Positions 3,796-45,357 of a DNA stretch of 64,000 bases are shown here, piece after piece. The DNA is from Emticicia aquatilis (lineage in GTDB: Bacteria > Bacteroidota > Bacteroidia > Cytophagales > Spirosomataceae), in contig NZ_BMKK01000003.1 in assembly GCF_014644295.1 (NCBI RefSeq), positions 558,001-622,000 on the forward strand, given 5' to 3'. The translations under genes and the position numbers were made by a program. The first letter of the stretch is position 1; each line of letters begins with the position of its first letter. Under the pieces are notes generated by a model. The model worked only from the letters and a program-made list of their open reading frames with translations. It ran no database searches and was not told where the DNA came from.

Positions 3796-4098
3796 TTATA
3801 TCCAAGCCTGAAAAGCTTTCATTCGGCGGCGAGAGATATGCACTCTTCGGCCGTTGTTGAGTGTAAGTGAAAACTCATCGAGATTGATGAGCTTTACAAA
3901 CGTTTTATTAATCATTTCAGAGCGGTTGAGCCTCATAAAAGATTGATTATCAGTTCGGTCTTCGTAGAATTTGAGGTTATAACCCGAAAGCAATTTCTTG
4001 CCATCTGACAAATGAATAATGGTGTAATTATTATCCGATTCCATCAAAATTATCTTCTTTTCTCTTGGAATCTTCTGAATTATTTTAGGTTGTTTCAT
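3796..4098 (-). CDS. Stand-alone LytTR DNA-binding protein
   Basis: A 100-residue protein that is essentially one LytTR domain with no receiver or membrane part. Typical features are IILMESDNNYTIIHLSDGK near the N-terminus, then the FMRLNRSEMINKTFV region and a closing VHISRRRMKAF. LytTR domains bind DNA direct repeats and usually control surface, adhesion or competence genes. Its start is only 10 nt from the stop of the preceding secreted-protein gene, so both are probably transcribed from the palindrome-marked promoter at 4743-4791. That would place it below the NarL-type response regulator of this window. What controls its activity without a receiver is unknown. Confidence 0.85.
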   Translation of the reverse strand: MKQPKIIQKIPREKKIILMESDNNYTIIHLSDGKKLLSGYNLKFYEDRTDNQSFMRLNRSEMINKTFVKLINLDEFSLTLNNGRRVHISRRRMKAFQAWI

Positions 4099-4108
4099 GG
4101 CTGTTTTT

Positions 4109-4726
4109 TTATTTTTTGAGTTGCTTGATTTCTTTCTTCAAAGCATCAATTTCTCGTTGTTGCTGGATTGTGTAAAGTGTGAGTTCTTCTACTTTTTCGA
4201 GCAGTTTTGATACCATTTCGTCCATCGCTACGCCGTTTTTTACAACTTCAGTAGCTGATGGAAGGTTTGGTAAATGGTTATTTTTGGCTATAAATTTTTC
4301 TACTTCTTTGAGCGGCATTAGATAATAATTTTGTTCAAAAACTCTATCCGACCACTGTTTTTCGTTGTCGTATTTCATCTTGAAGGAATTCAGTACAAAC
4401 TGTCCTTTTTCGTCGAGTTCCAGAAAATTGCGGTCGTTTATCTTGAAAGATGGCGAATTATAGGCCGTTCGCATATTGAAAATACCTTTTACATCTAAAC
4501 GATATTTAGGATTTGAAAGCCCAATTCCGACTTTCACGAGTGAAGTATCGCCTAAAACTAAGCCATCACTCACCGAAACTTTGGCATTATAGCCAATGGC
4601 TGAAGCTCTTTCGAGTGTGTTTTGATTGACACCAACTCCGCCTGCGTAACGTCCAAAATAAGAACCTGATTGAGCAAAAGCTCCGAATGTTAAGAAAAAC
4701 GAGAAAATGAAATATACTTTTTTCAT
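4109..4726 (-). CDS. Secreted tail-fibre-like protein with C-terminal coiled coil
   Basis: A 205-residue exported protein with signal peptide MKKVYFIFSFFLTFGAFAQS. The middle (VGIGLSNPKYRLDVKG) resembles the repeat style of Bacteroidota surface and tail-fibre-like proteins. The C-terminal part carries the common motif NNHLPNLPSATEVVKNGV followed by a heptad-rich helix of about 35 residues. Similar C-termini occur in many Bacteroidota exported proteins next to endosialidase-chaperone-like regions; the role is unknown. It is the first gene after the promoter with the shared palindrome and precedes the LytTR gene by 10 nt. Confidence 0.62.
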   Translation of the reverse strand: MKKVYFIFSFFLTFGAFAQSGSYFGRYAGGVGVNQNTLERASAIGYNAKVSVSDGLVLGDTSLVKVGIGLSNPKYRLDVKGIFNMRTAYNSPSFKINDRNFLELDEKGQFVLNSFKMKYDNEKQWSDRVFEQNYYLMPLKEVEKFIAKNNHLPNLPSATEVVKNGVAMDEMVSKLLEKVEELTLYTIQQQREIDALKKEIKQLKK

Positions 4727-4742
4727 AGTTATAATGTTTATA

Positions 4743-4791
4743 CAAATTTCACAATGTTAAAAATCTATTGAAATACCTATTTGGAGGTATT
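4743..4791 (-). promoter_or_regulatory. Palindrome-controlled promoter of the 4726 gene (site 1)
   Basis: The 20-bp element AATACCTATTTGGAGGTATT occupies 4772-4791 and overlaps the last codons of the upstream acyltransferase gene. On the minus strand it is followed by exactly 21 nt and then GAAATTTG (4743-4750), a 7-of-8 match to the Bacteroidota -7 box TAnnTTTG; the start codon comes 16 nt later. There is no -33 TTG at the usual place, which suggests that a bound activator substitutes for it. The outer half TACCTCC (minus strand) is identical in all three copies. Confidence 0.72.
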
Positions 4792-6324
4792 TTGATGGCT
4801 TTGCCAATAAAACCAACTTAACAGCAAAACAAAAGCGATAAATAAGGCATAAGCAAAAGCATCGGGGTGTTGGGTATAAAAACTTTTCTTGGTTACGAGC
4901 AGCACCTCATTGGTTGAAATGTTAGGCGTAAACCACGGAATTTGACCATAAACCTTACCGAATGGGTCGATGAAGCACGAAAGACCACCGTTTGAACAAC
5001 GAGCTACACTTCGGCGATTCTCGATGGCCCGAATCTTGGTAATGTTCAATAAAAACTTGGTTGCAGGTGTTTTGCCGAACCACGCATCGTTGTTCATGAG
5101 TGCAATGTACTCGGCTCCGCTATTCACTAATTTTGCTACTTTTTGTGGGTAGGTTTGTTCCCAGCAAATCGTTAGTGCTACATTAAAAATATTCTCTTTA
5201 CTACTCAAATAATTGAAAATGTGAGGTTCGTTTCCGCCCACTAAAATACGATTTTGGAATGATGGGTAATCGCTCAAATAGGGCATTGTTTCCATAAATG
5301 GTAAGCCGTATTCCTTTTCATAAACCTTTATTTGGTCGGGCGTAATTTTAAGCGAATCCCACATCATGGCCATTTGTGGCGTAAAAACTAATGACTTATT
5401 TTTATAGTTATTTCTCTGATTATCAATTATTTCCGAATAACCAACAGCCACCGAAGTTTGCCAACTCGAAATAGCATTTTTGGTGAATTGAAACAAACTC
5501 GAATCTTGAAACAAGGCCAGCGGAAAAGTTGCTTCGGGTAAAATAAGTATATCGGGGCTTTGCGTACGCACGGCCGAATCAGAAAGCGACACAATTTGCT
5601 CGAATGTCTGATTCAATACCACCGAGTCGAGCGGTAGATAACTATCTATATTGGTCTGAATCAACGAGACTTTTGTTTGGATATTAGCCGTTCCGATGGC
5701 ACTTTTGGGCGAAATCTGAATTTTGAAAAAACTATACCCAAAAGCCAACAGTAACCATCCAAACGTAAGAAAAAGATACTTTTGGGTTCGGTAAACTATA
5801 CTAAAAGTCAGTAAAACGTTGAGCATCATCACCCAAAAACTCAAACCCCAAAGCCCCGAAAAATCGGCTATTTGATTAAAATACTGCATGTTAGCTTGCG
5901 TATAACCCAAGTGCAAAACCTGCAAATTATGCGGAAGCGGTTGCGTAAGCCATTCGACCAAACTCCACAAAAAGGGTAGTAAAATGAGTGCTTTTTGCCA
6001 GCCAATTTTCTTCTGAATAAAAAAATGAATAACAAACGTAAGATTCAGAAACAAAAGCTGACTTAGCAGACAAACCAAAACCGCAATGGGTTTATAATAG
6101 CCCGTCCACCAAAAACCAATGACGATGGTGAAGCTATAAACCACCAATGTTTTGAGGAGGTATTTTCCAAACGAATTTTCGTTTTGGATAGACAATAAAA
6201 ATGGTACAAAAGCCACCAATGCCAATGGCCCTTGATGGAAATCAGAAAAACTGAGGTACGCTAAACCCAACAGAATTCCAGAAAACCAAAAGAGGTGTTT
6301 TTGTATGTTGTTCGGCTTACTCAT
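4777..6324 (-). CDS. lnt: Lnt-type apolipoprotein N-acyltransferase, copy 1
   Basis: A 515-residue inner-membrane protein with about six N-terminal transmembrane helices (residues 10-210) and a C-terminal nitrilase-fold domain. The catalytic triad is visible: Glu264 in LPEATF, Lys337 in YEKEYGLPF and Cys387 in ICWEQTYP. Lnt adds the third acyl chain to the lipoprotein N-terminal cysteine. The residue after Cys387 is Trp, where E. coli Lnt has Tyr. I chose ATG 6324 (MSKPNN) over one eight codons upstream; it overlaps the preceding secreted-protein gene by 8 nt, which indicates coupling. A close paralogue lies at 10258-11781, so one copy may have a specialised target. Confidence 0.82.
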   Translation of the reverse strand: MSKPNNIQKHLFWFSGILLGLAYLSFSDFHQGPLALVAFVPFLLSIQNENSFGKYLLKTLVVYSFTIVIGFWWTGYYKPIAVLVCLLSQLLFLNLTFVIHFFIQKKIGWQKALILLPFLWSLVEWLTQPLPHNLQVLHLGYTQANMQYFNQIADFSGLWGLSFWVMMLNVLLTFSIVYRTQKYLFLTFGWLLLAFGYSFFKIQISPKSAIGTANIQTKVSLIQTNIDSYLPLDSVVLNQTFEQIVSLSDSAVRTQSPDILILPEATFPLALFQDSSLFQFTKNAISSWQTSVAVGYSEIIDNQRNNYKNKSLVFTPQMAMMWDSLKITPDQIKVYEKEYGLPFMETMPYLSDYPSFQNRILVGGNEPHIFNYLSSKENIFNVALTICWEQTYPQKVAKLVNSGAEYIALMNNDAWFGKTPATKFLLNITKIRAIENRRSVARCSNGGLSCFIDPFGKVYGQIPWFTPNISTNEVLLVTKKSFYTQHPDAFAYALFIAFVLLLSWFYWQSHQNTSK

Positions 6325-7756
6325 TGATGATTTTCCAGCTAAACTCAATGTTTGATTTTCCTTTTTGTAATTCTTTCACTTCAAAACCCTCACGAGTTTT
6401 TTTCGAGATGAATACGCCATTACAATCGCCTTCGAGTTGAATGTTTATTTGAAGATTTTCAAAGTTTTCAACTGGACTATTAAATCTGATAAACGAACTT
6501 CCATTTGTCAATCTTCCTTTTCCTCCAACTTTTTGGGTACTTTCGGTTACTAATCGAGCCGATGGTGTAGAACCTAATCTTTGCCAGTTAGTACCATCGA
6601 AATAATAGAAGCCAGGGGTGTTGTCAATCTGATAAACCAAAAGTCCAGTTGCAGGAGAGCTTGGGCGGTTTGATTGAGCAATTCTTGGAATCAGAATACC
6701 CAAACTATCGCTTTTTACATCTAAAATGGCCGATGGATGTGCTGTATCGTTGTCAATATTGATGGTTACGCCCTTGCTATCATTATTGAGTTTTACGTCA
6801 TTTCCTTCACTTAGTAAAGAGGTTTGTACTACCGTGCGGTATTCAATTTCGCTCACCGTTACATTTCCACTGGTGCCAGATACTTTTGCCGTAAAATATT
6901 CGCCAGTTTTAGTAAGAAAACCGACATGATTCGTTGTCGAAACCAACGTGTAAGCAACAGTATTGTTGGGACGTGTATATTTCTGAATACTCGTAAGCAT
7001 TCGCAGGCAATCGTATGTACCCGTAGGCGTAGTGATTGTTCCGAAAGCATCGACATTTACGGTAAATACTTCTTTTAGTGTTTTTTGATTGGTAATATGG
7101 TCAGTTTCTTCACTGGTACTACTGTAATTATCGTTCAAATCAAACGGTACATCAGCTACTTCGTAGTCAGATTCATCAAATGTATCATCGCTGCCTACCT
7201 CCAAATCATAACTACTTCCGATATGATAGACGCCATCAGCGGCAAAATTATAATGGTCATACACATCCATTGGGCGGTCGTTTTCGTCATAATAGGCCGT
7301 TCGCATCACTTTATTTGCTCCAGCTACTTGTAGTGCGGCTGGCACGTTACCTACTGCAATAAAGTCTCCTCGACCCGCTCCATTAAAATACGTTAGAAAA
7401 TTAGCTGGTAAAGCCCAAGTTTGTGGTGTAGAATTATTGGCAGAACCAATATTCATCGAAAATGAAGCATTGTCGTTAGAGTAATTCAGCCATGTTTTAC
7501 CAACAGCCGTAAACGCATTAAAGTCGGCTAAGGTAATTGAAATAGCACTATTGTTTTGAGCTACCGAATTGTTTTGTGTATTGTTTCTGAGGTTCAAAAG
7601 ATTGGTATCAAAAACCTGCATTTTGCCCGAACGAGACTCCGCCGAGATACGGCCATTTATTCGATTGCCCTCACCAGTACAGCTCACTTTTCCCCCAAAT
7701 GAGTAGAAAGACATAAATAGCAAAAAGATTAGAAAAGATATAAATCGTAGTTTCAT
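6317..7756 (-). CDS. Secreted surface protein, paralogue of the 12386-13957 product
   Basis: A 479-residue exported protein (signal about residues 1-22). It aligns along its length with the 523-residue protein at 12386-13957: ITLADFNAFTAVGKTWL near residue 70, SSYDLEVGSDDTFDE in the middle, and the C-terminal blocks ILIPRIAQSNRPSSPATG and KKTREGFEVKELQKGKSN. The ILDVKSD...RPSSP..GLLVYQ...YYFDGTNW segment is a common Bacteroidota tail-fibre-like surface motif. Function unknown. It sits between a small secreted protein (22-nt gap) and Lnt copy 1 (8-nt overlap) in one operon. The association with an Lnt gene is repeated for the paralogue. Confidence 0.62.
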   Translation of the reverse strand: MKLRFISFLIFLLFMSFYSFGGKVSCTGEGNRINGRISAESRSGKMQVFDTNLLNLRNNTQNNSVAQNNSAISITLADFNAFTAVGKTWLNYSNDNASFSMNIGSANNSTPQTWALPANFLTYFNGAGRGDFIAVGNVPAALQVAGANKVMRTAYYDENDRPMDVYDHYNFAADGVYHIGSSYDLEVGSDDTFDESDYEVADVPFDLNDNYSSTSEETDHITNQKTLKEVFTVNVDAFGTITTPTGTYDCLRMLTSIQKYTRPNNTVAYTLVSTTNHVGFLTKTGEYFTAKVSGTSGNVTVSEIEYRTVVQTSLLSEGNDVKLNNDSKGVTINIDNDTAHPSAILDVKSDSLGILIPRIAQSNRPSSPATGLLVYQIDNTPGFYYFDGTNWQRLGSTPSARLVTESTQKVGGKGRLTNGSSFIRFNSPVENFENLQINIQLEGDCNGVFISKKTREGFEVKELQKGKSNIEFSWKIINE

Positions 7757-7777
7757 AATATGATTGGTGGTTTTAAA

Positions 7778-8236
7778 TTATGATACATCTAAACTATTCA
7801 AGATTTCGAGGGCATCTTTTTCGGCGGTTTTGTCTTCATCATCGAAGATTATGGCAATAAAGAAGTTAGTATGGCTATTGGGGTTGCCCAAACACGCAAA
7901 CATAATTCGGTTTCCGTCTTTGAAACCTTCTACGTAAAATCCTTCAAACTCATTAATCTTTACTTGGTGGGCTGCGTCAAGTTCTTGTAGTTTCATGGCT
8001 TTTGCTCCTGCTATGGCGGCATCGTCGAGGTCTTCGATGGCTACGTTTTCTTCGTGAATCAGCATCGAAAGTTCCATGCCTTCGCCTTTCATTTCAAATT
8101 CTTTGGCGGTGTTTTTCTTTATTCTAAAATCGTCAGGAACTGTGATTTGGATATTGAATTGTTTCCATACGTAGTTCTTCTGAGCAAAAGCACTGAATGA
8201 ACATAAGATGGCGAAGATGATTAGTAGTTTTTTCAT
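7778..8236 (-). CDS. Small secreted protein of unknown function
   Basis: A 152-residue protein with signal peptide MKKLLIIFAILCSFSAFAQ and an acidic mature domain of about 130 residues. I do not recognise a named family; the pattern of short strands (KQFNIQITVPDDFRI, GFYVEGFKDGNRIMFACLG) suggests a small alpha/beta fold. It is the first gene of a likely operon with the 479-residue secreted protein and Lnt copy 1. The 147 bases upstream lack the palindrome that marks the neighbouring surface-protein promoters, so this operon is probably outside that regulon. Confidence 0.5.
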   Translation of the reverse strand: MKKLLIIFAILCSFSAFAQKNYVWKQFNIQITVPDDFRIKKNTAKEFEMKGEGMELSMLIHEENVAIEDLDDAAIAGAKAMKLQELDAAHQVKINEFEGFYVEGFKDGNRIMFACLGNPNSHTNFFIAIIFDDEDKTAEKDALEILNSLDVS

Positions 8237-8383
8237 GTCTTTTATTTGTTTGATAATAAGTAAGGGCTAAGAAAGTACAATCCTTTCTTGCTCTTGCAAA
8301 TCAAAGACATAGTTGGCGGATTGTCATAGAATTTAGCGTGGACAAAGTGTGGACATAGGACTATTTTGTGCAAAAACAGCTAT

Positions 8384-10111
8384 TTAGTTCTCTTGAACTT
8401 GCATTTTTTTGTTCAAACGCATTTTGGCTTTGCGTACACTGGCTGGGTCGATATTCAGCAGATTGGCGATTTCTTTCGTAGAAAGATTGAGATGAAAGTA
8501 GGCACACAACCTAATTTCGTATTGGGTTAGAGTAGGGTGAGTGATTTGTAATTGCTTGAAAAAATTGGGGTGTACTTGCTCAAAATGAATGCGGAATCGC
8601 TCCCAATCGCTTTCTAAATGGAGGTTGTTTTGAATAACAGCTTTGATGTTTTTTATTACTTTCTGCGAAGTATCAGGAAGGTTTTCTCCCAGATGTTGTA
8701 CGCTCGATTTGAGGTCTAAAAGCAATTCATTTTTTTGCGAAATATAGAGCGTATTTGAGGCCAATTCACGCTGGTTTGCTTCTAATTTTTCTTGTAAATA
8801 TTGGTTCTGAGCTTGTTGCAGCGTATTCTGAAACACTAATTCCTGCGTTTCTAATTGTTTTTGTTTCAATTCTTCACGAATCAACAAAACACGTTGCACC
8901 AAGGCAATAGCCAAGAATAAGGCTTGGGCAATAATGGCAACTTTGGCAAAAATAGCATGGTCGGTCGTGCGAACCACATCAACAAATAAATACAGAAAAC
9001 TACTTACCAAAATAATTGACATCGAAATGCCATTCGCCACCAAAAAATAGCGAGCCAGCTTGTGCTTTCTCCTAAAACTCAATATAGCTACATAAAAAAT
9101 ACAAACTATCGTGCTGAATATTACAAAGTTGGGTAGTAAATTGGGTAATTTACCAGCTTTTATAATTCGGGAGAATAGCAGGACATTTGAAATAATTACT
9201 ATGGCAATAAAGCCAAAAGGTAGATATTTTAGCACTAAATCTTGTTTTGGGAGGTTATTTGTGGTGTCGAAGTAAAGACGAGTAATCTGCACGTAACCAA
9301 AGAGAATCATGGAAACACCAATATCGAACATGACTCCGTTGATTTCATGAAACATCACGAAACCATTTGGCTGAGCATCTACCACGCAGAAGCGGAATGG
9401 CAGTAAAACATTGAAATAAAACTGGTCAGCTAATATAAAAATGATGCCACCGATTTGAGCAACAAGGTAATAAATGAAGGTTTTGTCTCGAAAAACATAA
9501 AAAATGTAGGCATTGTATATCAAAAAGAATACAAACACAAATACCGTAATCCAAGTGGCAAGGTCAATGAATTGCTCATTTTCGGTGATATAACTCTCTT
9601 TTTCGAGCCAGACCGTAGCTTGAATAGGAGCAGTGGCCTTACGGAATGATTCTATATTTGCTTTAATGTATAGCTCAACGGTTTCGTTGGCTGGTAGCAC
9701 ACATGGCATCAACCAAATATTTCGTTGGCGATTATTGACCATCAAGCCATTCGAGTAACTAAGCCATTTTTGTTGATTTTTGTTGAAATAATACAAGGTA
9801 TTGTCGGCCATCGGCAGAAACTCAACCATGTATTTTTCGGAATAGGCAAACGGATTATGAACTTTTAGCTTTATCCAGTAAGCGTCGGTTACATTAGTTG
9901 CAAGCGTATCGGTATGTTTGAATTTCAGACTTTTATCAGTAAGAATCTGCTGAAATGTATAAGATTTATTGGGTAAAATGCTAAAATCCTTTGATTTTAT
10001 AGACTCTGCTTCATCAAGTTTAATGATGTTTTGGCTTTGGGCAGAGAATCCCAAAATAACTAAAATTGATAAGATAAAAAATCTACTTTGTAGCGTAATC
10101 TTTTTTCTCAA
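8384..10111 (-). CDS. 7TM-DISM membrane sensor with C-terminal LuxR-type helix-turn-helix
   Basis: A 575-residue protein in four parts: a signal peptide, a 7TMR-DISMED2-like extracytoplasmic domain (about 30-185), seven hydrophobic helices (about 190-400) and a cytoplasmic coiled coil (about 410-500) ending in a LuxR/GerE-like helix-turn-helix. The HTH is recognised from LTQYEIRLCAYFHLNLSTKE followed by IANLLNIDPASVRKAKMRL. There is no kinase or receiver domain. It would act as a one-component, membrane-tethered regulator that senses a ligand outside and binds DNA inside. It stands alone between the two Lnt modules, and its ligand-binding region resembles that of the kinase at 17628. Confidence 0.8.
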   Translation of the reverse strand: MRKKITLQSRFFILSILVILGFSAQSQNIIKLDEAESIKSKDFSILPNKSYTFQQILTDKSLKFKHTDTLATNVTDAYWIKLKVHNPFAYSEKYMVEFLPMADNTLYYFNKNQQKWLSYSNGLMVNNRQRNIWLMPCVLPANETVELYIKANIESFRKATAPIQATVWLEKESYITENEQFIDLATWITVFVFVFFLIYNAYIFYVFRDKTFIYYLVAQIGGIIFILADQFYFNVLLPFRFCVVDAQPNGFVMFHEINGVMFDIGVSMILFGYVQITRLYFDTTNNLPKQDLVLKYLPFGFIAIVIISNVLLFSRIIKAGKLPNLLPNFVIFSTIVCIFYVAILSFRRKHKLARYFLVANGISMSIILVSSFLYLFVDVVRTTDHAIFAKVAIIAQALFLAIALVQRVLLIREELKQKQLETQELVFQNTLQQAQNQYLQEKLEANQRELASNTLYISQKNELLLDLKSSVQHLGENLPDTSQKVIKNIKAVIQNNLHLESDWERFRIHFEQVHPNFFKQLQITHPTLTQYEIRLCAYFHLNLSTKEIANLLNIDPASVRKAKMRLNKKMQVQEN

Positions 10112-10257
10112 TGGGATATAATTTTTAAACTACAATATTAACCATTGACATTCAAAAAACATTTATAGAACCCATACATTTTTTTATGAAGCTTCTCCTA
10201 AATCATATTTCAATTTACTGCAATACTAAATTTAGCTTTTCCGAAAAGGTTTAAGAA

Positions 10258-11781
10258 TTACTTTTTAATCCAAAAGTAGAGTATCAGTCCGAACATTATA
10301 CTACTAATCAAAATTACAAAAAAACTGGGGTGTTTGGTATAAAAACTTTTTTTATTCACCGCCAATACGTCTTGCGAGGAAATGTTTGCAGTAAACCACG
10401 GAATCTCTCCGTAGATTTTGCCAAATGGGTCAATAAAACACGAAATCCCTCCATTTGAACATCGGGCTATCGCTCGTCGATTTTCGATGGCTCGTAGTTT
10501 TGTGAAACTCAGTAGATATTTTGCTCCAGGAGTTTTACCAAACCAAGAATCGTTGTTCATCATTGTGATATATTCTGCTCCATCACGCACTAATGAGGCA
10601 ATTTTGTTAGGGTAGGTTTGTTCCCAGCAAATACTCAAAGCCACTTTAAATTTTTCGCTTCGGGCTTTGGCATACAGAAAAGTATAAGGTTCGCTTCCTT
10701 TGATTAATCGTCTGCCTTTCAGCGAGTTACAGTTTTCGCAATAAGGCATAAATTCTATAAATGGTAGCCCAAATTCTTTTTGATAAATCTTTACATCGGC
10801 TTCTTTGATTTTCAGTGAATCCCAAAAATAAGCGAGTTGTGGCGTAAAGACCAAAGCCAAGTTTTTGAATGAAGTGCTGTCTTCGTAATTCACATAGCCA
10901 ATCGCTACGTTGGTATTCCAATTCACAATGTTTCTTCGGGCAAAATCTAAGAAACTTTTGTCTTTGAATAATGAAAATGGGAAAGATGCTTCGGGAAGTA
11001 CGACCAAATCGGGTTTGTGTGTACGTACTGCCGAATCGGAGAGTGAAATGATTTGATTGAGGGTTTTCTGCACAATCAATGAGTCGTTTTCGGCATAACT
11101 ATCAATATTTGTCTGTATCAACGAAACTTTGGTTTTGGTATTTCCGCTGCCGATAGCACTTGATGGATTAATGTGCAGTATCCAAACCGAATAAATGAGA
11201 GCAATCAAAACCCAAGTCGCAGAAAAAAGATAGTATTTCTTTGCTTTTGTATCAATAGCAAAAGTTATCAGAACATTGAGTGAAATCACCCAAAAAGCAA
11301 TACCCCAAATACCTGCAAGGTCGGCAAATTGATTGAAATACAGCAAATGTGCTTGAGTATAAGCAATATTAAGCACTTGTAGGTTATGCGGAAGCAGGTG
11401 CGTAGCCCATTCGACAAATACCCAAAGAAATGGAAAAAGTATGAGCGAACGCCGCCACCCAAAGCGTTTTTGCAACCCAAAATGCAATACAAATACGAAG
11501 TATAATGAAAGTAATTGCGTAAAATAACAAACAAAGAATGTTTGCCAGCTGTAATAGCTCGTCCACCAGAAACCTATCGGGCTACTGATGGCAAAGACTG
11601 GCAAAATGATGGAAAGATAGGCTTTAAATGAAATTGTTTTCTTGATTTCGAGCAAAAGTGGCACTAAGGCAAACCAAGCCAAAACCCCGAAAGGAAATTC
11701 GGGGTAATTGGGATAAGCAAGGCCGTAAAGAATGCCTGATGTAAGAATTGTACTCCAAACAGAACTTTTTAATTTGCTCAT
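10258..11781 (-). CDS. lnt: Lnt-type apolipoprotein N-acyltransferase, copy 2
   Basis: A 507-residue paralogue of the 4777-6324 product, collinear over the whole length; the block KVSLIQTNIDSY begins at residue 218 in both. About six transmembrane helices are followed by a nitrilase domain with Glu264 (LPEASF), Lys335 (YQKEFGLPF) and Cys385 (ICWEQTYP), so it looks catalytically intact. Cys385 is followed by Trp, as in copy 1. It has its own start (MSKLKSS) and is divergent from a toxin-antitoxin remnant that now separates it from the paralogous secreted-protein gene at 12386. Two Lnt genes within 6 kb are unusual; one could serve general lipoprotein maturation. Confidence 0.82.
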   Translation of the reverse strand: MSKLKSSVWSTILTSGILYGLAYPNYPEFPFGVLAWFALVPLLLEIKKTISFKAYLSIILPVFAISSPIGFWWTSYYSWQTFFVCYFTQLLSLYFVFVLHFGLQKRFGWRRSLILFPFLWVFVEWATHLLPHNLQVLNIAYTQAHLLYFNQFADLAGIWGIAFWVISLNVLITFAIDTKAKKYYLFSATWVLIALIYSVWILHINPSSAIGSGNTKTKVSLIQTNIDSYAENDSLIVQKTLNQIISLSDSAVRTHKPDLVVLPEASFPFSLFKDKSFLDFARRNIVNWNTNVAIGYVNYEDSTSFKNLALVFTPQLAYFWDSLKIKEADVKIYQKEFGLPFIEFMPYCENCNSLKGRRLIKGSEPYTFLYAKARSEKFKVALSICWEQTYPNKIASLVRDGAEYITMMNNDSWFGKTPGAKYLLSFTKLRAIENRRAIARCSNGGISCFIDPFGKIYGEIPWFTANISSQDVLAVNKKSFYTKHPSFFVILISSIMFGLILYFWIKK

Positions 11782-11855
11782 CTACAAAAAATTAATTCAT
11801 TTCTACATATAAATTTATTTAAAAAAACTAATTTGCATAATCAAATTCATAGAAA

Positions 11856-12023
11856 ATGACTATTGTGATTAAAAGTAATAGTAAAAATACTGATGTAGAT
11901 TTACTATTGAAAAAGTTGAAAGAAAGCCCTAAAAAGCAGGGATTAAGAAAACATTTTGGTTTATTAAAGCGTAATATTGATGGCTTAGAACTTCAAAAAG
12001 AACTTCGTAATGAATGGGATTGA
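11856..12023 (+). CDS. Putative antitoxin of a VapBC-like pair
   Basis: A 55-residue ORF, MTIVIKSNSKNTDVD to KELRNEWD, whose stop lies 14 nt inside the following PIN-domain gene. The size, basic middle part, acidic-hydrophobic tail and overlap with a PIN toxin gene are typical of a type II antitoxin. I recognise no named DNA-binding fold in the sequence. It starts 75 nt from the divergent Lnt copy 2. The call rests mainly on the neighbour. Confidence 0.55.
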   Translation: MTIVIKSNSKNTDVDLLLKKLKESPKKQGLRKHFGLLKRNIDGLELQKELRNEWD

Positions 12024-12379
12024 TTTCTTAGCCGATACTAATTTTCTAATTCAAATACATGAAGGAAAACCTAATGTAGAAGCGTTTCTTGATTATCATT
12101 TCGGGGTGTCATTTATTACAGAAATCGAACTTTTAGGTAAATTTAGTGTATCAAAAATTGAGAAAAAACCTTCTCCGAAATTTACTTAACGATTGCTTTA
12201 TCATTGAGATGAATCAAAATATTAAATCAAGAACAATATGGCTACGCCAGCGATATAAACTCAAAACCCCTGATGCTATTATTGCAGCTACTGCCATCGA
12301 ATTTCAAGTACCTCTTATAAGTTCAGATAACGATTTTTCTGTAATAAAAGAGCTGGATTTCTTATTTCTTGAAAAGTAA
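12010..12379 (+). pseudogene. PIN-domain toxin gene with a frameshift in an A6 run
   Basis: From ATG 12010 the frame reads MNGIDFLADTNFLIQIHEG and on to ITEIELLGKFSVSKIEKK, then stops at 12187-12189 after 59 codons. Conserved PIN sequence continues in the next frame as NLLRNLLNDCFIIEMNQ, TPDAIIAATAIEF and SSDNDFSVI, to a stop at 12377-12379. Removing one A from the run at 12163-12168 joins the halves into an intact toxin of about 122 residues with all four acidic metal ligands (Asp9, the Glu of TEIE, the Asp of TPDA and of SSDND). PIN toxins are RNases that cut tRNA or other RNA. The gene is either truly inactivated, switchable by slippage, or affected by a sequencing error. Confidence 0.78.
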
Positions 12380-12385
12380 AAAACT

Positions 12386-13957
12386 TCATTTTTCAATTCT
12401 CCAACTAAACTTCACATTCGATTTTCCTTTTTGTAATTCTTTTACCTCAAAACCTTCACGAGTTTTATTTGAGATATAGACTCCATTGCAATCTCCTTCG
12501 AGTTGGATGTTTATGATTAAATCTTCAAAATCATCTCGTGGTGTATCGAATTTAATAAAAGTTGTCCCATTTTGTAGTTGATTTTTGCCACGAAAACTCA
12601 AATTTTCGCTAATTATAGAATTGCTTGTTCTGATATTTGCTTGCATCGAACTTGACGGTGTTGTACTTAATTTATTCCAAGCTGTTCCATCGAAAAAATA
12701 AAAACCAGGTGTATTATCGACTTGATAAACCAGTAGCCCCTCGGCTGGTGAACTTGGGCGATTAGCTTGGGTGATGCGTGGAATCAAAATGCCCAGTGAA
12801 TCGCTGTTTATATCTAAAATTGCACTGGCATCTGCCGTGAAATCAGTATTATTTATTGCAATCCCATGACTATCATTGTTGATTTTGACGGCAGATTGCG
12901 AAGTAAGTGTGTTTGTTGGCACAAAGCGTGTAAGTTCCATAAATCCTACAAGACCTACATGATTGCTGTTTTCTGATTGGACTGCTGCACTAAAGATAAA
13001 ACCATTTTTGGTTATCCATTTTACTCGTCTGATTTCATAATTAGCTTGCGTTCCATAAGCTACTGCTTCGCTTACTCGTCTGAAATACTTGATGTTTTCA
13101 GTTTGGCGTAAACATTGAAAATTACCATAAGGCGTATTGATTGTTCCGAAGGCATCTACAATGGTTTCTGTGCGAATTTTTAGAAAATTTCCATTGTCAT
13201 TTTCCTCAATCGGATAATCTTCTGTGATTTGATTATCGCCCAATTCAAGTGGCACGTCATATAACTCTACATCAGGTTCTTCATCAAAGTTATCATCACT
13301 TCCTTCATCAAAGTCATAAGAAGAGCCTAAATCTGTAACTTCAGTTCCATCAACTTGTAGGTGCATGTAAGAATCGGCCTCACCATCGTTTGGTTCAGAA
13401 ACTACCTCCTTCAATACATGAGTTGCACCCGCTACCTGCATTGATATTGGAATCTGGCTCGGCAAAAGAATATCAAGCCGAGAGGTATGCCCATCTACAT
13501 ATTCAGCGAGATTAGATGGGAGCGTCCAAGTTTGAGCATTAACGGCATCGGCAATGCCAATATTCATATAGAAATAATCAAAAAAACCTTGAGAAAATAA
13601 AATGGATTTTCCTGCTTGTAGGATGCTTTCAAAGTCGGTTTGAGTAATTTGTATGGCTGAATTTACAGAGGCAATTTTCGCATTTGGTTGCGAAATATCA
13701 TTTTTGAGATTTAGTAACTCTCTATCACTCAAATTAATTAGGCTAATACCATTTGGACAATCGAAACCTTTAAAACAACCAAAAGGGTTAAAGAGACTAT
13801 TGGGAAACCCAGGAGGGTGCTGTGGGTCTGGTTTCACTTCTACACAACCGCAGCCACTTGTTTGGCTACCACAGCCACAAGTCGAACTTGCTGCTTGGGC
13901 ATAGAACGCTGATAGAAATGTAGTAAAAAAGATAAGGTGGTAAATAACTCTTTTCAT
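12386..13957 (-). CDS. Secreted surface protein, paralogue of the 6317-7756 product
   Basis: A 523-residue exported protein: signal peptide ending near residue 22, then a short cysteine-rich stretch (STCGCGSQTSGCGC) absent from the paralogue. It shares with the 479-residue protein the blocks SSYDFDEGSDDNFDE, DAFGTINTPYGNFQCLR, ILIPRITQANRPSSPAEG and the C-terminal KTREGFEVKELQKGKSN. Such proteins are probably surface exposed; function unknown. Its promoter carries the 20-bp palindrome, unlike that of the paralogue, so the two copies are probably regulated differently. It converges with the PIN gene remnant (6-nt gap). Confidence 0.62.
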   Translation of the reverse strand: MKRVIYHLIFFTTFLSAFYAQAASSTCGCGSQTSGCGCVEVKPDPQHPPGFPNSLFNPFGCFKGFDCPNGISLINLSDRELLNLKNDISQPNAKIASVNSAIQITQTDFESILQAGKSILFSQGFFDYFYMNIGIADAVNAQTWTLPSNLAEYVDGHTSRLDILLPSQIPISMQVAGATHVLKEVVSEPNDGEADSYMHLQVDGTEVTDLGSSYDFDEGSDDNFDEEPDVELYDVPLELGDNQITEDYPIEENDNGNFLKIRTETIVDAFGTINTPYGNFQCLRQTENIKYFRRVSEAVAYGTQANYEIRRVKWITKNGFIFSAAVQSENSNHVGLVGFMELTRFVPTNTLTSQSAVKINNDSHGIAINNTDFTADASAILDINSDSLGILIPRITQANRPSSPAEGLLVYQVDNTPGFYFFDGTAWNKLSTTPSSSMQANIRTSNSIISENLSFRGKNQLQNGTTFIKFDTPRDDFEDLIINIQLEGDCNGVYISNKTREGFEVKELQKGKSNVKFSWRIEK

Positions 13958-13994
13958 AAGTCTTAACTTAAGATGATTATCTGAAAGAATATTA

Positions 13995-14043
13995 CAAAAT
14001 TCACTGATATAATGAATCTTTAAAATACCTACATGGAGGTATT
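13995..14043 (-). promoter_or_regulatory. Palindrome-controlled promoter of the 13957 gene (site 2)
   Basis: AATACCTACATGGAGGTATT lies at 14024-14043, in the gap between two co-oriented surface-protein genes. On the minus strand 21 nt separate it from GAATTTTG (13995-14002), a 7-of-8 match to TAnnTTTG, and the start codon follows 37 nt later. The 20-bp palindrome is identical to site 3. The same distance and the absence of a -33 TTG match site 1. Confidence 0.75.
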
Positions 14044-14063
14044 TTGAGAGAAAATATCTTTCC

Positions 14064-17000
14064 TTAATTAACTATCAATATTCTGAAGGTGCCTTGAGCT
14101 ATTCCACCAGCGGCATTTGTACATCTAATTTTTAGTGTATTATTATCTACATGGTAATAAGATGTCCTGACATATTCCATTAACGAATACTCATTGGCTT
14201 GCTCATTAGTAATCATAATGATAGGTTGATAGCCTAAATTATGAACCCACTCTACTTCGGCCATACCATGAGTGGTTGTTCCACCTAAAGTAACTGTGGG
14301 AGGTACGGTTATGGCTACACTCGCAGTTCTGAGAGGCGTTTTAGAGTTCCAAGAGGCATTTCCGTTGGCATCACTCACCAAAACAGCATTTTCTGTGGCA
14401 CCTGTTCGTAGGCGTACTGTTCCTACTACATCAAAATTTGCGGTTGGAGAATCAGTACCGATACCGACATTTGCACCATTTGGATTCAGTGCTAAATTTC
14501 TCCATTCATTCAAGTCGCTATTATGACCTCCAATAGTTGCCGTTTGATTGAAAATACCAAATACTAATCTGTTGCCTGTTTGTCCTCCAAAATTTCCAGA
14601 AATCCAATCGGTAAGACCCGTTGCTCCGTGTGTACTCGAAACTTTCAAACCTGCCAAACCATTCACTTCCAGCTTTGTAGCAGGGTTTGAAGTCCCAACT
14701 CCCATTGCTCCACTGTTGTCAATTATCATTCTATATTGATTGGCAGTGGCATCGTAAACCCCAAATTTATTCGGTCCAGAACCCGCACCAGTGCCAGTAC
14801 TAATCAAAGCAAAGTCGGTATCGCCATCAAGATAAACAGCAGGGCCTACATTAGAACCACTACTAATTCTAAAACCATTATCCCAGCCATACCCGTGAAT
14901 ATGAAGCCCAGCACTTGGCGAAGTCGTGCCAATTCCCAGTGCTTTATTGGCATTATCCCAAAACAAATTAGCATTGCTCTGCGAAATATTTGAGCCGTTG
15001 CTAAATAAAATACTTCCGTTTGTGAGACTTGGGAGATTATATTTATTGTTGAAAGTATTCCAATCGGTGCTGGTTAAAATTCCATTTGTTGAGGCACTCG
15101 CATTAGAAAGTGCATTTTGTTTAGTGTTGAATATATTCCAATCAGTACTGGTCAAAATGCCAGAAGTTGTTGCGTTGGCATTGAAGAGAGTATTTTGTTT
15201 ATTATTGAAAGTATTCCAATCGGTGGATGAAAGATAACCATTAGTTGTACTATTGGCTTGGGACATACTTATAACGGGAGTTGTTGTGCTATTCGTTACC
15301 TGCATGGGAGTAGTAGCTGTGACAGAGGTTACTGAATTTAAAGCAGCAGAACTACTACTTAATGTACCATCAGCAGCAACAACCACATTTCGAATGCCCG
15401 TACCAGCCATTGACTCAATTTGAACATTTGTTGACCCTTTCACAGCAATTGCTTTTGTCGTCCCATCAATCTTTAATAAATCAACAGGTGTTTCTGTTTC
15501 ATATAACTTTAATGAAAGGTCGTAGTTATTCTCTGGAGTTGCAATATCGTAGTAATATTTACCCGCAATGTTATTTGGGGCTAAAGCAAGAATCATTTGT
15601 CCTCCATATCCTCCAATAGTAAGTGTATAAACTTGACCGGCCACAACAGGTTGATTGAGATTGATTTCTGCATAAGTTGATGGACTATATGGTGGCAGAG
15701 AAAAATTACCTATGCTTAAAGTTTCGCCCCCATAGTAACCTTCACCCTTATTTAATATATATTGCCCAGTACCCGTATACTGAGGCCGTCCCACATTAAC
15801 AGACACTTTGTTGAGTATTCCTGTTGTTTGAGCAACAAAAGATTGCCCAAAAGAATTTTGTGTCGTAATAATCGTAGGGGAATTTGAATAACTATCGACT
15901 GTTACACTTGGTTCTACACCACCACCTTGAAAAGTGAATTCTTTACTGTTAAGGCTTATAATTGTATTTTTTTTAAGGACTCCGCCTAATTGCAATGTGT
16001 CATTTTGAATTTTGATACCATTTTCAACATTTAGCGATTTTAAAAGACCCTCCGAATTTGTTGATAAAATTTTAGCATTGGGGTAATAGGGTATTCTAAT
16101 AAGCCCACCCGGATTGAGGTCTAATGTCTCCCATTGTGCATGTAAATCGTTGGTAGCACCAATCGTTGGATTTCCATTTCTTGTACCCATTACTAATCTT
16201 GAACCCGTAGAGGCACCTATTGATGAGACAATCCACAGGGATGTATTACCATTGTTTATTGGAGATAGTTGTGAAGATACATGAAGAGGGAAGGTTAGAA
16301 TATTAGTACCGACTCCTAACTTAAAATTCGTGTTATCCCAAAATAATTTTGAGTTGTTTTGGCTAATAGTTGAGCCATTCGAAAATAGTAAACTGCCCGA
16401 ATTTAGTACTGGTAGAGTAAATTTATTATTAAAAGTATTCCAGTCAGCACTTGTTAAAATTCCCGAAGCAGTAGCATTAGCATTTGAAAGTGGATTTTGT
16501 TTGTTATTAAAAGTATTCCAATCAGCACTTGTTAAAATTCCCGAAGTAGTAGCATTTGCATCTGGTAGTGGGTTTTGTTTATTATTAAAAGTATTCCAAT
16601 CGGCACTTGTTAAAATCCCCGAAGTAGTGGCATTTGCATTAGAAAGTGGATTTTGCTTATTATTAAAAGTATTCCAATCGGCACTTGTCAAAATCCCCGA
16701 AGTGGTGGAATTGGCGTTTGAAAGTGGGCTTTGTTTGCTATTAAAAGTATTCCAATCGGCACTTGTTAAAATCCCTGATGTTGTAGCATTTGCATCTGGT
16801 AGTGGATTTTGCTTATTATTAAAAGTATTCCAATCAGCACTTGTTAAAATCCCCGAAGTGGTGGCGTTGGCATTAGAAAGTGGATTTTGCTTATTATTAA
16901 AAGTATTCCAATCAGCACTTGTTAAAATCCCCGAAGTGGTGGCGTTGGCATTAGAAAGTGGATTTTGCTTGTTATTAAAAGTATTCCAATCAGCACTTGT

Positions 17001-17495
17001 CAAAATCCCCGAAGTGGTTGCATTGGCATTGGGTAGTGGATTTTGCTTATTATTAAAAGTATTCCAATCAGCACTTGTTAAAATCCCTGAAGTGGCTGTA
17101 TTTGCATTTGGCAAGGTATTTTGCTTATTATTGAAAGTATTCCAGTCCGTGCTTGAAAGAAAACCATTGGTTGTTCCATTGGCTTGTTGGATAGTTATGG
17201 CCGGTGTTGTTGAGCCATTTGTTACCGATAAAGGCGAATTTGCCGTAACATTCGTAACGGTTCCGCTGTTTCCACTACCACCGCTTGAAACTGCTGTCCA
17301 AGCGGTTCCGTTCCAAATATAAAGTCCAGTTGAACCGTCAGTTTGATAAATCAGTTGCCCTTTAACTGGATTTACAGGCCGAGTAGCTTGTGTAAATGAA
17401 GGTATTACAGTACCATTAGGCAAAATGATACTTGATTGAGCAAAAAGTTTAGAAGTAGCAACGAGTAAGAAAAGGATAAATATTATTCGCTTCAT
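14064..17495 (-). CDS. Large secreted repeat protein (tail-fibre-like adhesin candidate)
   Basis: A 1143-residue exported protein starting at ATG 17495 (MKRIIFILFLLVATSKLFAQ); a TTG two codons upstream is less likely. After a RPVNPVKGQLIYQTD surface motif come ten 26-residue units of the type GILTSADWNTFNNKQNPLSN. Next is a beta-rich domain with FSNGSTISQNNSKLFWDN. Three more 26-residue units (STDWNTFNNKQ) and a second copy of the beta domain (FSNGSNISQSNANLFWDN) follow. The unit layout resembles phage tail-fibre shafts, and the closing 100 residues form a separate tip domain. Likely a fibrous surface protein. It is transcribed from the divergent palindrome promoter shared with the sensor kinase operon. 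Confidence 0.7.
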   Translation of the reverse strand: MKRIIFILFLLVATSKLFAQSSIILPNGTVIPSFTQATRPVNPVKGQLIYQTDGSTGLYIWNGTAWTAVSSGGSGNSGTVTNVTANSPLSVTNGSTTPAITIQQANGTTNGFLSSTDWNTFNNKQNTLPNANTATSGILTSADWNTFNNKQNPLPNANATTSGILTSADWNTFNNKQNPLSNANATTSGILTSADWNTFNNKQNPLSNANATTSGILTSADWNTFNNKQNPLPDANATTSGILTSADWNTFNSKQSPLSNANSTTSGILTSADWNTFNNKQNPLSNANATTSGILTSADWNTFNNKQNPLPDANATTSGILTSADWNTFNNKQNPLSNANATASGILTSADWNTFNNKFTLPVLNSGSLLFSNGSTISQNNSKLFWDNTNFKLGVGTNILTFPLHVSSQLSPINNGNTSLWIVSSIGASTGSRLVMGTRNGNPTIGATNDLHAQWETLDLNPGGLIRIPYYPNAKILSTNSEGLLKSLNVENGIKIQNDTLQLGGVLKKNTIISLNSKEFTFQGGGVEPSVTVDSYSNSPTIITTQNSFGQSFVAQTTGILNKVSVNVGRPQYTGTGQYILNKGEGYYGGETLSIGNFSLPPYSPSTYAEINLNQPVVAGQVYTLTIGGYGGQMILALAPNNIAGKYYYDIATPENNYDLSLKLYETETPVDLLKIDGTTKAIAVKGSTNVQIESMAGTGIRNVVVAADGTLSSSSAALNSVTSVTATTPMQVTNSTTTPVISMSQANSTTNGYLSSTDWNTFNNKQNTLFNANATTSGILTSTDWNIFNTKQNALSNASASTNGILTSTDWNTFNNKYNLPSLTNGSILFSNGSNISQSNANLFWDNANKALGIGTTSPSAGLHIHGYGWDNGFRISSGSNVGPAVYLDGDTDFALISTGTGAGSGPNKFGVYDATANQYRMIIDNSGAMGVGTSNPATKLEVNGLAGLKVSSTHGATGLTDWISGNFGGQTGNRLVFGIFNQTATIGGHNSDLNEWRNLALNPNGANVGIGTDSPTANFDVVGTVRLRTGATENAVLVSDANGNASWNSKTPLRTASVAITVPPTVTLGGTTTHGMAEVEWVHNLGYQPIIMITNEQANEYSLMEYVRTSYYHVDNNTLKIRCTNAAGGIAQGTFRILIVN
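15037..15240 (-). repeat. Second cluster of 78-bp coding repeats (3 units)
   Basis: The marker GTATTCCAATC or a near variant recurs at about 15055, 15133 and 15211, an exact 78-bp period. These encode three degenerate 26-residue units (STDWNTFNNKQ type) and are more diverged from each other than the ten-unit array further upstream in the same gene. Confidence 0.75.
16417..17170 (-). repeat. 78-bp tandem repeat array, ten units, within the surface-protein gene
   Basis: The marker GTATTCCA recurs at 16435, 16513, 16591, 16669, 16747, 16825, 16903, 16981, 17059 and 17137, each step exactly 78 bp (26 codons). Neighbouring units are nearly identical, so copy number could change by recombination or slippage without loss of frame. 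The first translated unit (FLSSTDW) and the last (ending NKFTLP) are the most diverged. Confidence 0.9.
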
Positions 17496-17527
17496 ATGCA
17501 AGATTTTTGAGTTACAAAAGACTATGA

Positions 17528-17605
17528 CAAAAGTATAGGCGAGGCTTTCGTAGTAAAATACCTACATGGAGGTATTTTGAGAAGTGAACGAAAAAGATAG
17601 TTTTG
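17528..17605. promoter_or_regulatory. Divergent double promoter with central palindrome (site 3)
   Basis: The palindrome AATACCTACATGGAGGTATT (17557-17576) is flanked on both sides by exactly 21 nt and a perfect TAnnTTTG box: TACTTTTG on the minus strand (17528-17535) for the large repeat protein, and TAGTTTTG on the plus strand (17598-17605) for the kinase operon. Only the plus-strand promoter also has a TTG at 17577-17579, 18 nt from its -7 box. The two halves fit NarL-type heptamers (TACCTAC, TACCTCC) in a 7-2-7 inverted arrangement, which suits binding by the response regulator encoded downstream. Confidence 0.8.
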
Positions 17606-17627: not shown

Positions 17628-19454
17628 TTGAAAGCCTTCCGAATTATCATTTTATCATTGATTCATCATCTTGTTTTAGCTCAAAACGCACCTGTTTTTG
17701 AGCTGAACGACGATTTTGAGAGTAGCGATTTGATAGGTTACGTTTCAAGATATGATTCGGACAAACGAGATTCGGTTCAAAAGGTTTTTCGCTCGAAAGA
17801 TTTCAAATTATCTTCACAAGTCCCTTCTTTCAATGCTGATTTTCAATATCATTGGCTAAAATTTAAGCTAAATCCTGCTCAGAATAAGCAGTTAGTAATT
17901 GAGTATCAGCAGATATTCATTGATGAAATTTCTTTTTATTTGTTTGAAAATGACTCTCTGATTCAACAAAAATCTTCTTCATGGAAATTGAATTTTTCTG
18001 ATAAACCAGTGCCGAGTCGCTACCACGCTTTTGCGTTTAATGTAAAGAAAGGTAAATCATATACAGTATTTTTAATGTGCCACAATTCACACCTAAAATA
18101 CTCAAATCGGGCGTTTATTAGGGTTTTTGATGAAAAAAGTTATGAAAAGGAAGCTGATATTTATTTATTACAGATTTGTTTAAGCGTTGGGAGTTTGATT
18201 TTTGTAACCATTCTGTCATTAGGATTTTTCGGATATTCACGTAAAAGAGTATATATATTTTACACACTTTACATCGTCTCTATTTCCTTGTATATTCTGG
18301 TAGTAAACGGGGTTTTCAATCAGTTTTTTAATGCCAATAATTCCTTTTTCGCAAAACCCGAGTTTGGTTCAATACTGGTTGTTTTAAATCTTGCCTTTCA
18401 TGGTTTGTATGTTTACGAATTTTTTAAAATCAAGCATAAAATCTTTACAGTTGCGTATCTTATATTTTTGTTTTTGAGCTTAATACAGGCTTTGCTTTTT
18501 TCTTTTACTCCACAAACCTACATACCTTTTGGTTATATTTATCTCTATTTTGCCCTCCTAATTATTTCAACTTTAATCTTTCATTTCAAACCCAACCGAA
18601 AGGCCGTTTATCTTTATTTGGTGGCCTCTGGCCCTGTATTTCTTACTTTTATTTTTGTTATTTTAGGAGCAATCGGTCTGACCAAAATCAACACATTTTT
18701 CTATTATTATGCCCACATTCCACTCATGCTTGAGGGTATCGGTTTAGGTTTGGCTCTGTTGTATCAGTTCAATGATGAACGTAAAAAAATTGAAGCCGAA
18801 TTAGAAAAAAATCGGGTAGAAACGACTCAAAAAATCTTACTCGCACAGGAAGAAGAACGCCAAAAACTCGCACTTGATTTACACGATGATTTAGGCGGAA
18901 GCCTTTCGGTTTTGAATCGGGAGTTAGATGATTTTAATGAAAGAAATGGCCAAATTCTTACGAAGTCAGTTAATCTCACCCAAAAAATTGTATCCGATTT
19001 ACGCACAATCTCGCACCATCTGATGCCGTCATCGTTTGAAGAAAAAGGATTAGTAAAAGTTGTGCAAGAAAGCATCGAAATGGCTAATCGGCAATCCAAA
19101 GTTTACTTTGTTTTCGTATATAACGGTGAAGAACGAAGATTACCTCTCGAAACCGAAATCAATATCTATCGAATCATTAAAGAGTTGATAAACAATGTTT
19201 TTAAACATTCAGAAGCCAAACAATCGGTTGTGCAGATGATTTTCTTTGATGATTTTTTGTATGTTTCGGTCGAAGACGATGGCAAAGGCTTTGATTTTTC
19301 GGAGCAGCATAGTTGGGGAATTGGACTGAATAATATAAATTTACGTACCCAATACCTGAAAGCAAAATTAACCACTGAATCGAGTTCTGCGGGAACTCTC
19401 ATTAGCCTCGAAATACCATATAATGCCTACGAAAACAAAAATCCTGCTGGTTGA
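17628..19454 (+). CDS. 7TM-DISM sensor histidine kinase (NarX/LiaS-like HisKA_3 type)
   Basis: A 608-residue kinase with signal peptide (FRIIILSLIHHLVLAQ), a 7TMR-DISMED2-like extracellular domain (about 20-170), seven transmembrane helices (about 178-385), a coiled coil, then HisKA_3 with phospho-accepting His419 in LDLHDDLGGSL and an HATPase domain with EDDGKGFDF and GIGLNNINLR. The start must be TTG 17628: an in-frame stop lies at 17619-17621 and the signal peptide begins right after. It overlaps the response regulator gene by 32 nt, forming a cognate pair. The promoter carries the palindrome, so the pair probably controls its own synthesis. The extracellular domain suggests a carbohydrate or envelope ligand. 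Confidence 0.88.
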   Translation: MKAFRIIILSLIHHLVLAQNAPVFELNDDFESSDLIGYVSRYDSDKRDSVQKVFRSKDFKLSSQVPSFNADFQYHWLKFKLNPAQNKQLVIEYQQIFIDEISFYLFENDSLIQQKSSSWKLNFSDKPVPSRYHAFAFNVKKGKSYTVFLMCHNSHLKYSNRAFIRVFDEKSYEKEADIYLLQICLSVGSLIFVTILSLGFFGYSRKRVYIFYTLYIVSISLYILVVNGVFNQFFNANNSFFAKPEFGSILVVLNLAFHGLYVYEFFKIKHKIFTVAYLIFLFLSLIQALLFSFTPQTYIPFGYIYLYFALLIISTLIFHFKPNRKAVYLYLVASGPVFLTFIFVILGAIGLTKINTFFYYYAHIPLMLEGIGLGLALLYQFNDERKKIEAELEKNRVETTQKILLAQEEERQKLALDLHDDLGGSLSVLNRELDDFNERNGQILTKSVNLTQKIVSDLRTISHHLMPSSFEEKGLVKVVQESIEMANRQSKVYFVFVYNGEERRLPLETEINIYRIIKELINNVFKHSEAKQSVVQMIFFDDFLYVSVEDDGKGFDFSEQHSWGIGLNNINLRTQYLKAKLTTESSSAGTLISLEIPYNAYENKNPAG

Positions 19455-45324: not shown

Positions 45325-45357
45325 AAGGAAGCCTTCGCTCAAAGCGAAGGCTTCCTT
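45325..45357 (-). terminator. Terminator after the GMC oxidoreductase gene
   Basis: A perfect 15-bp stem (45325-45339 with 45343-45357) with a 3-nt loop, 19 nt after the GMC stop; on the minus strand a TTTTATTTT tract follows. Confidence 0.92.

Follow-up and report, generated by a model that had tools for sequence, protein, structure and literature searches.

Operators and genes of the locus

The 64,000-nucleotide (nt) stretch of the Emticicia aquatilis genome analyzed here (contig NZ_BMKK01000003.1, positions 558,001 to 622,000; referred to below as the window) encodes a two-component system, consisting of a sensor kinase (17628-19454, plus strand) and a NarL-type response regulator (19423-20058, plus strand), and carries three copies of a 20-mer, AATACCTNNNTGGAGGTATT, which are candidate operators for this regulator. 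The copies lie at 4772-4791 (operator 1), 14024-14043 (operator 2), and 17557-17576 (operator 3), where an earlier reading of the DNA without database searches (the sequence-only reading) had reported them, while 100 dinucleotide shuffles gave an average of 0.00 copies. Operators 2 and 3 (AATACCTACATGGAGGTATT) are identical, and operator 1 (AATACCTATTTGGAGGTATT) differs from them at two positions, both in the center. All three, to which no strand is assigned, have the 7-2-7 arrangement of NarL sites that had been claimed for them, i.e., two inverted heptamers with outer TAC around a 2-bp center (TACCTAC-AT-GGAGGTA, TACCTAT-TT-GGAGGTA; the heptamers of operator 1 are TACCTAT and TACCTCC). The half-site TACCTAT fully fits TACYYMT, which we take to be the NarL consensus, and the other half-sites differ from it at base 7.

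Each operator is followed at a fixed distance by a putative -7 box. The boxes are GAAATTTG (4743-4750), GAATTTTG (13995-14002), and TACTTTTG (17528-17535) on the minus strand, 21 nt from operators 1, 2, and 3, respectively, and TAGTTTTG (17598-17605) on the plus strand, also 21 nt from operator 3, which is thus common to two divergent promoters. Measurement agreed with the claimed spacing at all four promoters, including both sides of the third copy. The boxes had been described as TAnnTTTG-like; two of them match TAnnTTTG exactly, but the other two begin with G (GAnnTTTG), and all four fit NAnnTTTG. They end 17 to 38 nt ahead of the open reading frame (ORF) starts at 4726, 13957, and 17501 (minus strand) and 17628 (plus strand). 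Operator 1 has in addition a second one-mismatch box, TAACATTG, 12 nt away.

We then determined the distribution of the element in the whole genome (6,747,492 bases). The exact form AATACCT-N6-AGGTATT was confined to the three places in the window, so that the random scatter away from promoters that would have told against a regulon was not borne out. The scan with up to two mismatches, which the sequence-only reading had suggested, gave 52 forward matches versus 24 for the reversed control; since the control already reaches 24, many of these loose matches are noise. The box test was run on the looser TACCT-N6-AGGTA, which has nine sites in the genome, and none of the six beyond the window had an NAnnTTTG box at a distance of 21 or 22 nt (one site had a box at 31 nt and one had a box at 28 nt). 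A scattered genome-wide regulon of this regulator was rejected on these grounds, though weaker sites may exist, and the putative regulon is local as far as exact half-sites go.

Palindromes of this kind could also act at the RNA level, as hairpins of intrinsic terminators or 5' elements, or be dispersed repeats, read by no protein. Each of them does fold more stably than the mean of its own shuffles (z, -2.2 to -5.3), and upstream genes end at or just before operators 1 and 2, operator 1 overlapping the 3' end of the ORF at 4777-6348. None, however, is among the 15 terminator-like matches of the region (a GC-containing stem and then a T run), operator 3 sits between divergent promoters, and all the operators are upstream of predicted starts. 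A dispersed repeat is at odds with a total of three exact genomic copies, and spacing and letters are kept in other genera. We regard both explanations as scarcely credible.

The kinase combines 7TMR-DISMED2, 7TMR-DISM_7TM, HisKA_3-like, and HATPase_c domains; HATPase_c scored above its cut-off, and HisKA_3, at 22.8 bits, just under its cut-off of 24. Its ORF overlaps that of the regulator, consistent with a partner kinase encoded in the same operon. The regulator, the proposed operator-binding protein, has a receiver domain (PF00072) and a GerE (LuxR-type) helix-turn-helix (HTH) domain (PF00196), and the column of NarL D59 is identical in a pairwise alignment with Escherichia coli NarL.

The genes downstream of the minus-strand promoters encode a secreted-looking 205-amino-acid (aa) protein (4109-4726), the first gene of a presumed operon transcribed from operator 1; a stand-alone LytTR DNA-binding protein (3796-4098; Pfam PF04397, 5e-16), presumably the second gene of that operon; a secreted-looking 523-aa protein (12386-13957), presumably driven from operator 2; and a secreted-looking 1145-aa repeat protein (14064-17501), presumably driven from operator 3. 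The 523-aa protein has a paralogue at 6317-7756 (45% identical). The earlier description of the targets as secreted tail-fibre-like proteins stood as far as their secreted look is concerned, but not as to tail fibres: the three proteins showed no convincing family in Pfam, NCBIfam, or PHROGs, with weak matches only, no tail-fibre family was among these, and the weak PHROG matches were to families of unknown function. The AlphaFold2 model of the 523-aa protein had a mean pLDDT (predicted local distance difference test score) of 48.9, and a Foldseek search with it gave nothing at 0.001, the best match being a putative lipoprotein (E, 2.7e-3).

Several other genes are interspersed with these. Two paralogues of lnt (apolipoprotein N-acyltransferase), 4777-6348 (TIGR00546, 1e-59) and 10258-11781 (LNT_N and CN_hydrolase), lie within the cluster on the minus strand, and between them (8384-10111, minus strand) lies a 7TMR-DISM protein with no match to a kinase domain, whose C terminus has, by eye, the look of a helix-turn-helix. 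What remains of a PIN-domain gene, its reading frame interrupted, was likewise recognized by eye at 12012-12380 (plus strand). Farther away, at 45325-45357, a perfect inverted repeat with 15-bp arms and a 3-bp loop, perhaps a terminator, lies between two minus-strand ORFs.

Conservation of the operators and their spacing

Operators with the TACCT letters were found at four loci with related regulators: in Lacihabitans sp. CS3-21 (L015; regulator 66% identical), with two sites and three promoters at 21 nt; in a Bacteroidetes metagenome-assembled genome (MAG) (L016), with three sites and four promoters at 21 nt; in a Cytophagales MAG (L017), with one site and a box at 21 nt; and in Lacihabitans sp. 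CCS-44 (L018), with two sites and three promoters, one of them at 22 nt. More distant relatives of the regulator occur in Rudanella (L019) and Siphonobacter (L020). The operators of L015 and L016 are surrounded by homologous secreted-protein, LytTR, lnt, kinase, and regulator genes. In both loci, the operator between the kinase gene and the divergent gene for the homologue of the 523-aa protein has 21-nt boxes on both sides, and a further operator lies just ahead of the LytTR gene. The homologue of the 205-aa protein in L015 is 73% identical, and the divergent gene in L018 encodes a 909-aa protein whose start resembles, by eye, that of the 1145-aa protein of the window. Because the orthologous loci keep the operators, the spacing, and the neighboring genes, it is the predicted regulon itself, beyond the motif alone, that is conserved. 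The two-sided operator with a 21-nt box on each side recurs in the window, L005, L008, L015, L016, L030, and L114, and one site probably drives two divergent promoters.

As for other genes of these loci, an lnt-like gene, recognized by resemblance, is present in L015 and L016 as well, where the counterparts of operator 1 are a few nucleotides off it. An intact relative of the PIN-domain remnant (2525-2896; Pfam PIN, 3e-9) occupies a comparable place in L016.

The sites could in principle be read by a protein other than the adjacent regulator, either another GerE regulator of the genome or the LytTR protein encoded at 3796-4098. The genome holds 11 matches to the regulator at E of 1e-30 or better, itself included, and in E. 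coli NarP acts beside NarL at one ogt derivative, according to the portion of the source available (PMC7419079). Against this stands the observation that the two nearest paralogues encoded in this genome go with operators of other letters, TMCCCC (L005) and TACAAAC (L006), whereas the orthologues in other genera keep TACCT; LytTR domains, for their part, read other kinds of sites. A different reader is therefore quite improbable. The locus of the second paralogue (L006, 9033-17738) and L012 have three successive 7TMR-DISM-like kinases, one regulator, a row of small secreted-looking proteins (the three tested showed no Pfam family), and three TACAAAC operators at 22 nt.

We asked how general the spacing is by searching 11 genomes of the genus for ATAC-N10-GTAT followed by NAnnTTTG at 12 to 28 nt. 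This gave 136 matches, 43 of them at 21 nt and 15 at 22 nt, with a mean of 5.2 over the 15 other spacings. Six of the 15 matches at 22 nt represented a single non-palindromic sequence, ATACCTTTACCTTTGTAT, in identical or nearly identical form. With the stricter AATAC-N10-GTATT, used for the wider search, the 21-nt spacing accounted for 56/124 of the matches listed for the remainder of the family (mean at other spacings, 4.1) and for 18/46 in the rest of the order and class (mean at other spacings, 1.6). A palindrome measure including the 2-bp center separated the matches poorly, at least three of five pairs being found in 11/43 of the 21-nt matches versus 14/78 of the others; when the positions were taken separately, the excess of pairing came from inner pairs 1 and 2 (0.70 and 0.49 paired versus 0.36 and 0.38).

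Two sets of sites found on the way stood apart. Near-identical TACTGTC-type operators (L023 and L024, in genome G066; also L042, L050) were present at three places of G066 among the matches listed, one of them no more than about 110 nt away from the gene of a GerE regulator, which suggests larger regulons of the same layout. G151, a genome of the same class, had seven AATACGTRTAAATACGTATT sites among the matches listed, with the box 21 nt away at five of them and 22 nt away at two, a candidate multi-target regulon.

Regulators and operators across the family

The association of the spacing with regulators of this type was determined in both directions. An ORF with a GerE (LuxR-type HTH) domain was present in 30/40 stretches around 21-nt matches versus 1/20 control stretches (Fisher p, 1.7e-7). 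The 40 test stretches were selected visually by going down the list of 56 family matches at 21 nt outside the genus, and some hold two matches; L049 and L052 duplicate the records of L016 and L018, already in the model, and without both the count is 28/38. Contig ends shorten L041 and L042 to under or near 10 kb, and L048 slightly. The 20 controls, matches at spacings other than 20 to 22, were chosen before their genes were seen and share the outer letters and the box, their inner pairing being unmatched.

In the reverse direction, 69 regulator matches obtained by protein similarity led to 40 new stretches, those already in hand being among the ones left out; after L081, L084, and L092 were dropped as repeats of L015, L017, and L019, 37 regulator loci remained. 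Their 439,036 bases held 24 TAC..GTA palindromes with at least 7/8 pairs, 19 of which had a box at 21 or 22 nt, while the 314,670 bases of the 20 controls held one, with boxes at 15 and 31 nt and none at 21 or 22 nt. For palindromes with at least six pairs, a box at 21 or 22 nt was found in 23/37 (regulator loci) versus 0/12 (controls). Between 4.5 kb upstream and 0.6 kb downstream of the regulator start, 14/37 loci had a site at 21 nt and 6 at 22 nt, 19 in all, and the 26 other spacings together gave four matches.

The inner letters of the operators were found to follow the recognition helix of the adjacent regulator. The helix S-L/Y-L/M/H-T followed by KTHRRNIHFK, present in the window and in L015 to L018, pairs with TACCT, and SVATVKTHRNNI pairs with TACAAAC; most xETVKTH helices go with TACCCC, S-S/I-TTVETH with TACTGTC, and KTVRKH mostly with TACG. 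Over 42 regulator/operator pairs, set by hand with the nearest operator taken, operator similarity correlated with helix similarity (Mantel r, 0.27; 0/5000 permutations), and the correlation persisted when the rest of the HTH domain was controlled for (partial r, 0.19; 1/5000 permutations). A prediction trained on 41 of the pairs (one near-duplicate dropped) and applied to 25 of the 37 loci, those in which an ATAC..GTAT palindrome with six or more pairs occurred within 6 kb, matched 4.56 of 6 inner bases, versus 2.76 when permuted (0/10000; 14 distinct helices); the training and test regulators are related, and the permutation test carries their shared ancestry. Counting from the T of TVKTH, columns +6 and +3 scored highest for the first inner base; the mutual-information scores are uncorrected for the 62 columns, and columns beyond the helix scored as well, so that the residue assignments are tentative. 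NarL K188, V189, and K192 align at +2, +3, and +6 in the pairwise alignment; we take them to be base-contacting residues, for which a literature search found no confirming paper. As candidate specificity residues, we propose the one before TVxTH and those at +2, +3, and +6.

A number of results weigh against so regular a picture. Beyond the class, the spacing peak is weak, with 6/39 matches at 21 nt versus a mean of 2.1 elsewhere. The peak is also partly trivial, the operator edge GTATTG itself supplying a TTG 20 nt before the box; on removal of the GTATTG matches, the 21-nt peak in the genus fell from 43 to 22, still versus 4.7 elsewhere. Ten of the 40 stretches around 21-nt matches were devoid of a GerE ORF, and, conversely, 18 of the 37 regulator loci had no site at 21 or 22 nt within the searched interval. 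No site was seen in L009, where the adjoining regulator is from the same genus and 44% identical, and the regulator gene of L006 is 5.8 kb away from the closest TACAAAC operator. As to the code, TACCT operators also adjoin regulators with other helices (L033, L039, L040), the helix SSKTVRKH pairs with TACTAC instead of TACG, and the held-out operators of SQHTVDTH and SPYTIETH were mispredicted. With these points weighed in, we still consider it probable that in this Cytophagales family the NarL/LuxR-type regulators as a class share an 18-bp ATAC-N10-GTAT operator that lies near the regulator gene and is separated by 21 nt, or sometimes 22, from an NAnnTTTG box, and that a few residues of the recognition helix determine its inner bases.

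Proposed mode of action and relation to known systems

The position of the operators relative to the transcription start was derived from Flavobacterium psychrophilum, where, in the part of the report available, the TAnnTTTG box spans -12 to -5 (PMC9723704). Since the box is taken to have the same position here, the operator center falls at -43.5, and the operator abuts or overlaps the -35/-33 element at a fixed spacing, as is characteristic of class II activation. Sigma-70 type promoters were rejected as a frame of reference, giving 49 matches versus a shuffle mean of 50.1. In these loci, a TTG ending 20 nt before TAnnTTTG was favored, being present at 11% of 134 promoters versus 1 to 5% at the other distances between 14 and 25 nt. 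As the sequence-only reading had stated, no TTG ends 18 to 21 nt ahead of the box at any of the three minus-strand promoters of the window; at the plus-strand promoter, a TTG ends 18 nt ahead of the box, 2 nt off the favored distance.

Whether these features speak for activation depends on the alternative that the same regulator represses from the same operators, the dimer covering the -33 region and blocking polymerase until a signal removes it. An operator that overlaps or abuts the -33 position could equally repress, and 26 of 66 comparable promoters keep a TTG exactly there, made by the operator edge GTATTG, some of which could fire unaided; the view that loss of the TTG is a sign of activation is weakened to that extent. 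That view gains, on the other hand, from the window promoters, none of which has a TTG at the favored distance and two of which have G-initial boxes. G is also the commonest first box letter at the 66 promoters (G 31, T 26), indicative of weak cores, while its background frequency among all NAnnTTTG in the loci is 0.18 (T, 0.27) and it occurs in 61/290 upstream of long ORFs; the 66 promoters include orthologues and come mostly from stretches selected for 21-nt matches. Moreover, a spacing fixed over many regulators would suit a protein-protein contact, and a repressor would be expected to tolerate shifts. The missing well-placed TTG and the G-initial boxes thus favor activation, and repression seems unlikely.

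The activation that we propose would proceed as follows. The 7TMR-DISM/HisKA_3 kinase would phosphorylate the NarL-type regulator, a dimer of which would bind the 16-bp 7-2-7 core TACCTMY-NN-RKAGGTA at the three operators. This dimer would be centered near -43.5, on or next to the -33 element, with 21 nt, or about two turns of the helix, between the edge of the operator and the -7 box, and would recruit RNA polymerase in a class II-like manner. Operator 3 would serve its two promoters at equal distance, so that the system would jointly control the operon that encodes it and one gene for a secreted protein; two further secreted-protein transcripts and the LytTR gene would come from operators 1 and 2. 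Binding, its dependence on phosphorylation, activation over repression, and the operon structure are what we infer here. The earlier proposal of a two-component regulon read by the adjacent regulator is supported by the orthologue conservation, the palindromes that many related regulators have in the corresponding position, and the coupling between helix and operator, and we assign a probability of roughly 80% to a local regulon in which this regulator binds the three operators and activates its own operon and the secreted-protein genes.

The nearest functional parallel is the NarX-NarL system of E. coli (ogt, yeaR). It shares with the window system a HisKA_3-type kinase and a NarL-type regulator (28% identical to NarL), and, as far as the accessible text of PMC7419079 goes, the inverted heptamers with a 2-bp center and outer TAC, the site abutting the -35/-33 element, and activation from one such 7-2-7 site next to the -35 element (-44.5 in the case of ogt); the window regulator most likely activates in the way NarL does at ogt. 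An engineered NarL site, TACCCCTAAAGGGGTA, given in the consulted part of another study (PMC4549865), is close to operator TACCCCAAATGGGGTA of the relative L051. Unlike NarX-NarL, the window system has a Bacteroidota -33/-7 promoter and a 7TMR-DISM sensor, the box spacing is common to many related systems, and a pair of divergent promoters can be served by one operator. Among PDB sequences, VraR is closest to the regulator (3e-31) and, in a comparison of the proteins, has the same receiver and GerE HTH; VraR and the other NarL-type regulators of solved structure considered with it come from Gram-positive bacteria. LuxR-type class II activators, whose lux box lies near -42.5, likewise place a dimer of GerE-domain proteins at an inverted repeat that overlaps the -35 region, but are controlled by ligand instead of phosphorylation. 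Judged by its composition, the window system belongs to the known NarL 7-2-7 kind, with an architecture that is family-wide. The claim that no regulon with this site has been described held in that titles and abstract openings returned by searches of open-licence papers gave no account of operators of NarL-type regulators in Bacteroidota; in kind, however, the site is not unique.

If the family-wide reading is true, regulator-to-promoter maps of many uncharacterized two-component systems could be read from sequence alone, the fixed box position and the helix/operator code together offering a direct prediction of the genes under their control. The many natural regulator/operator pairs would serve studies of the evolution of DNA specificity and the design of orthogonal switches. 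For the family itself, it would mean that target specificity diversified through changes in helix and operator while the geometry toward polymerase stayed frozen.

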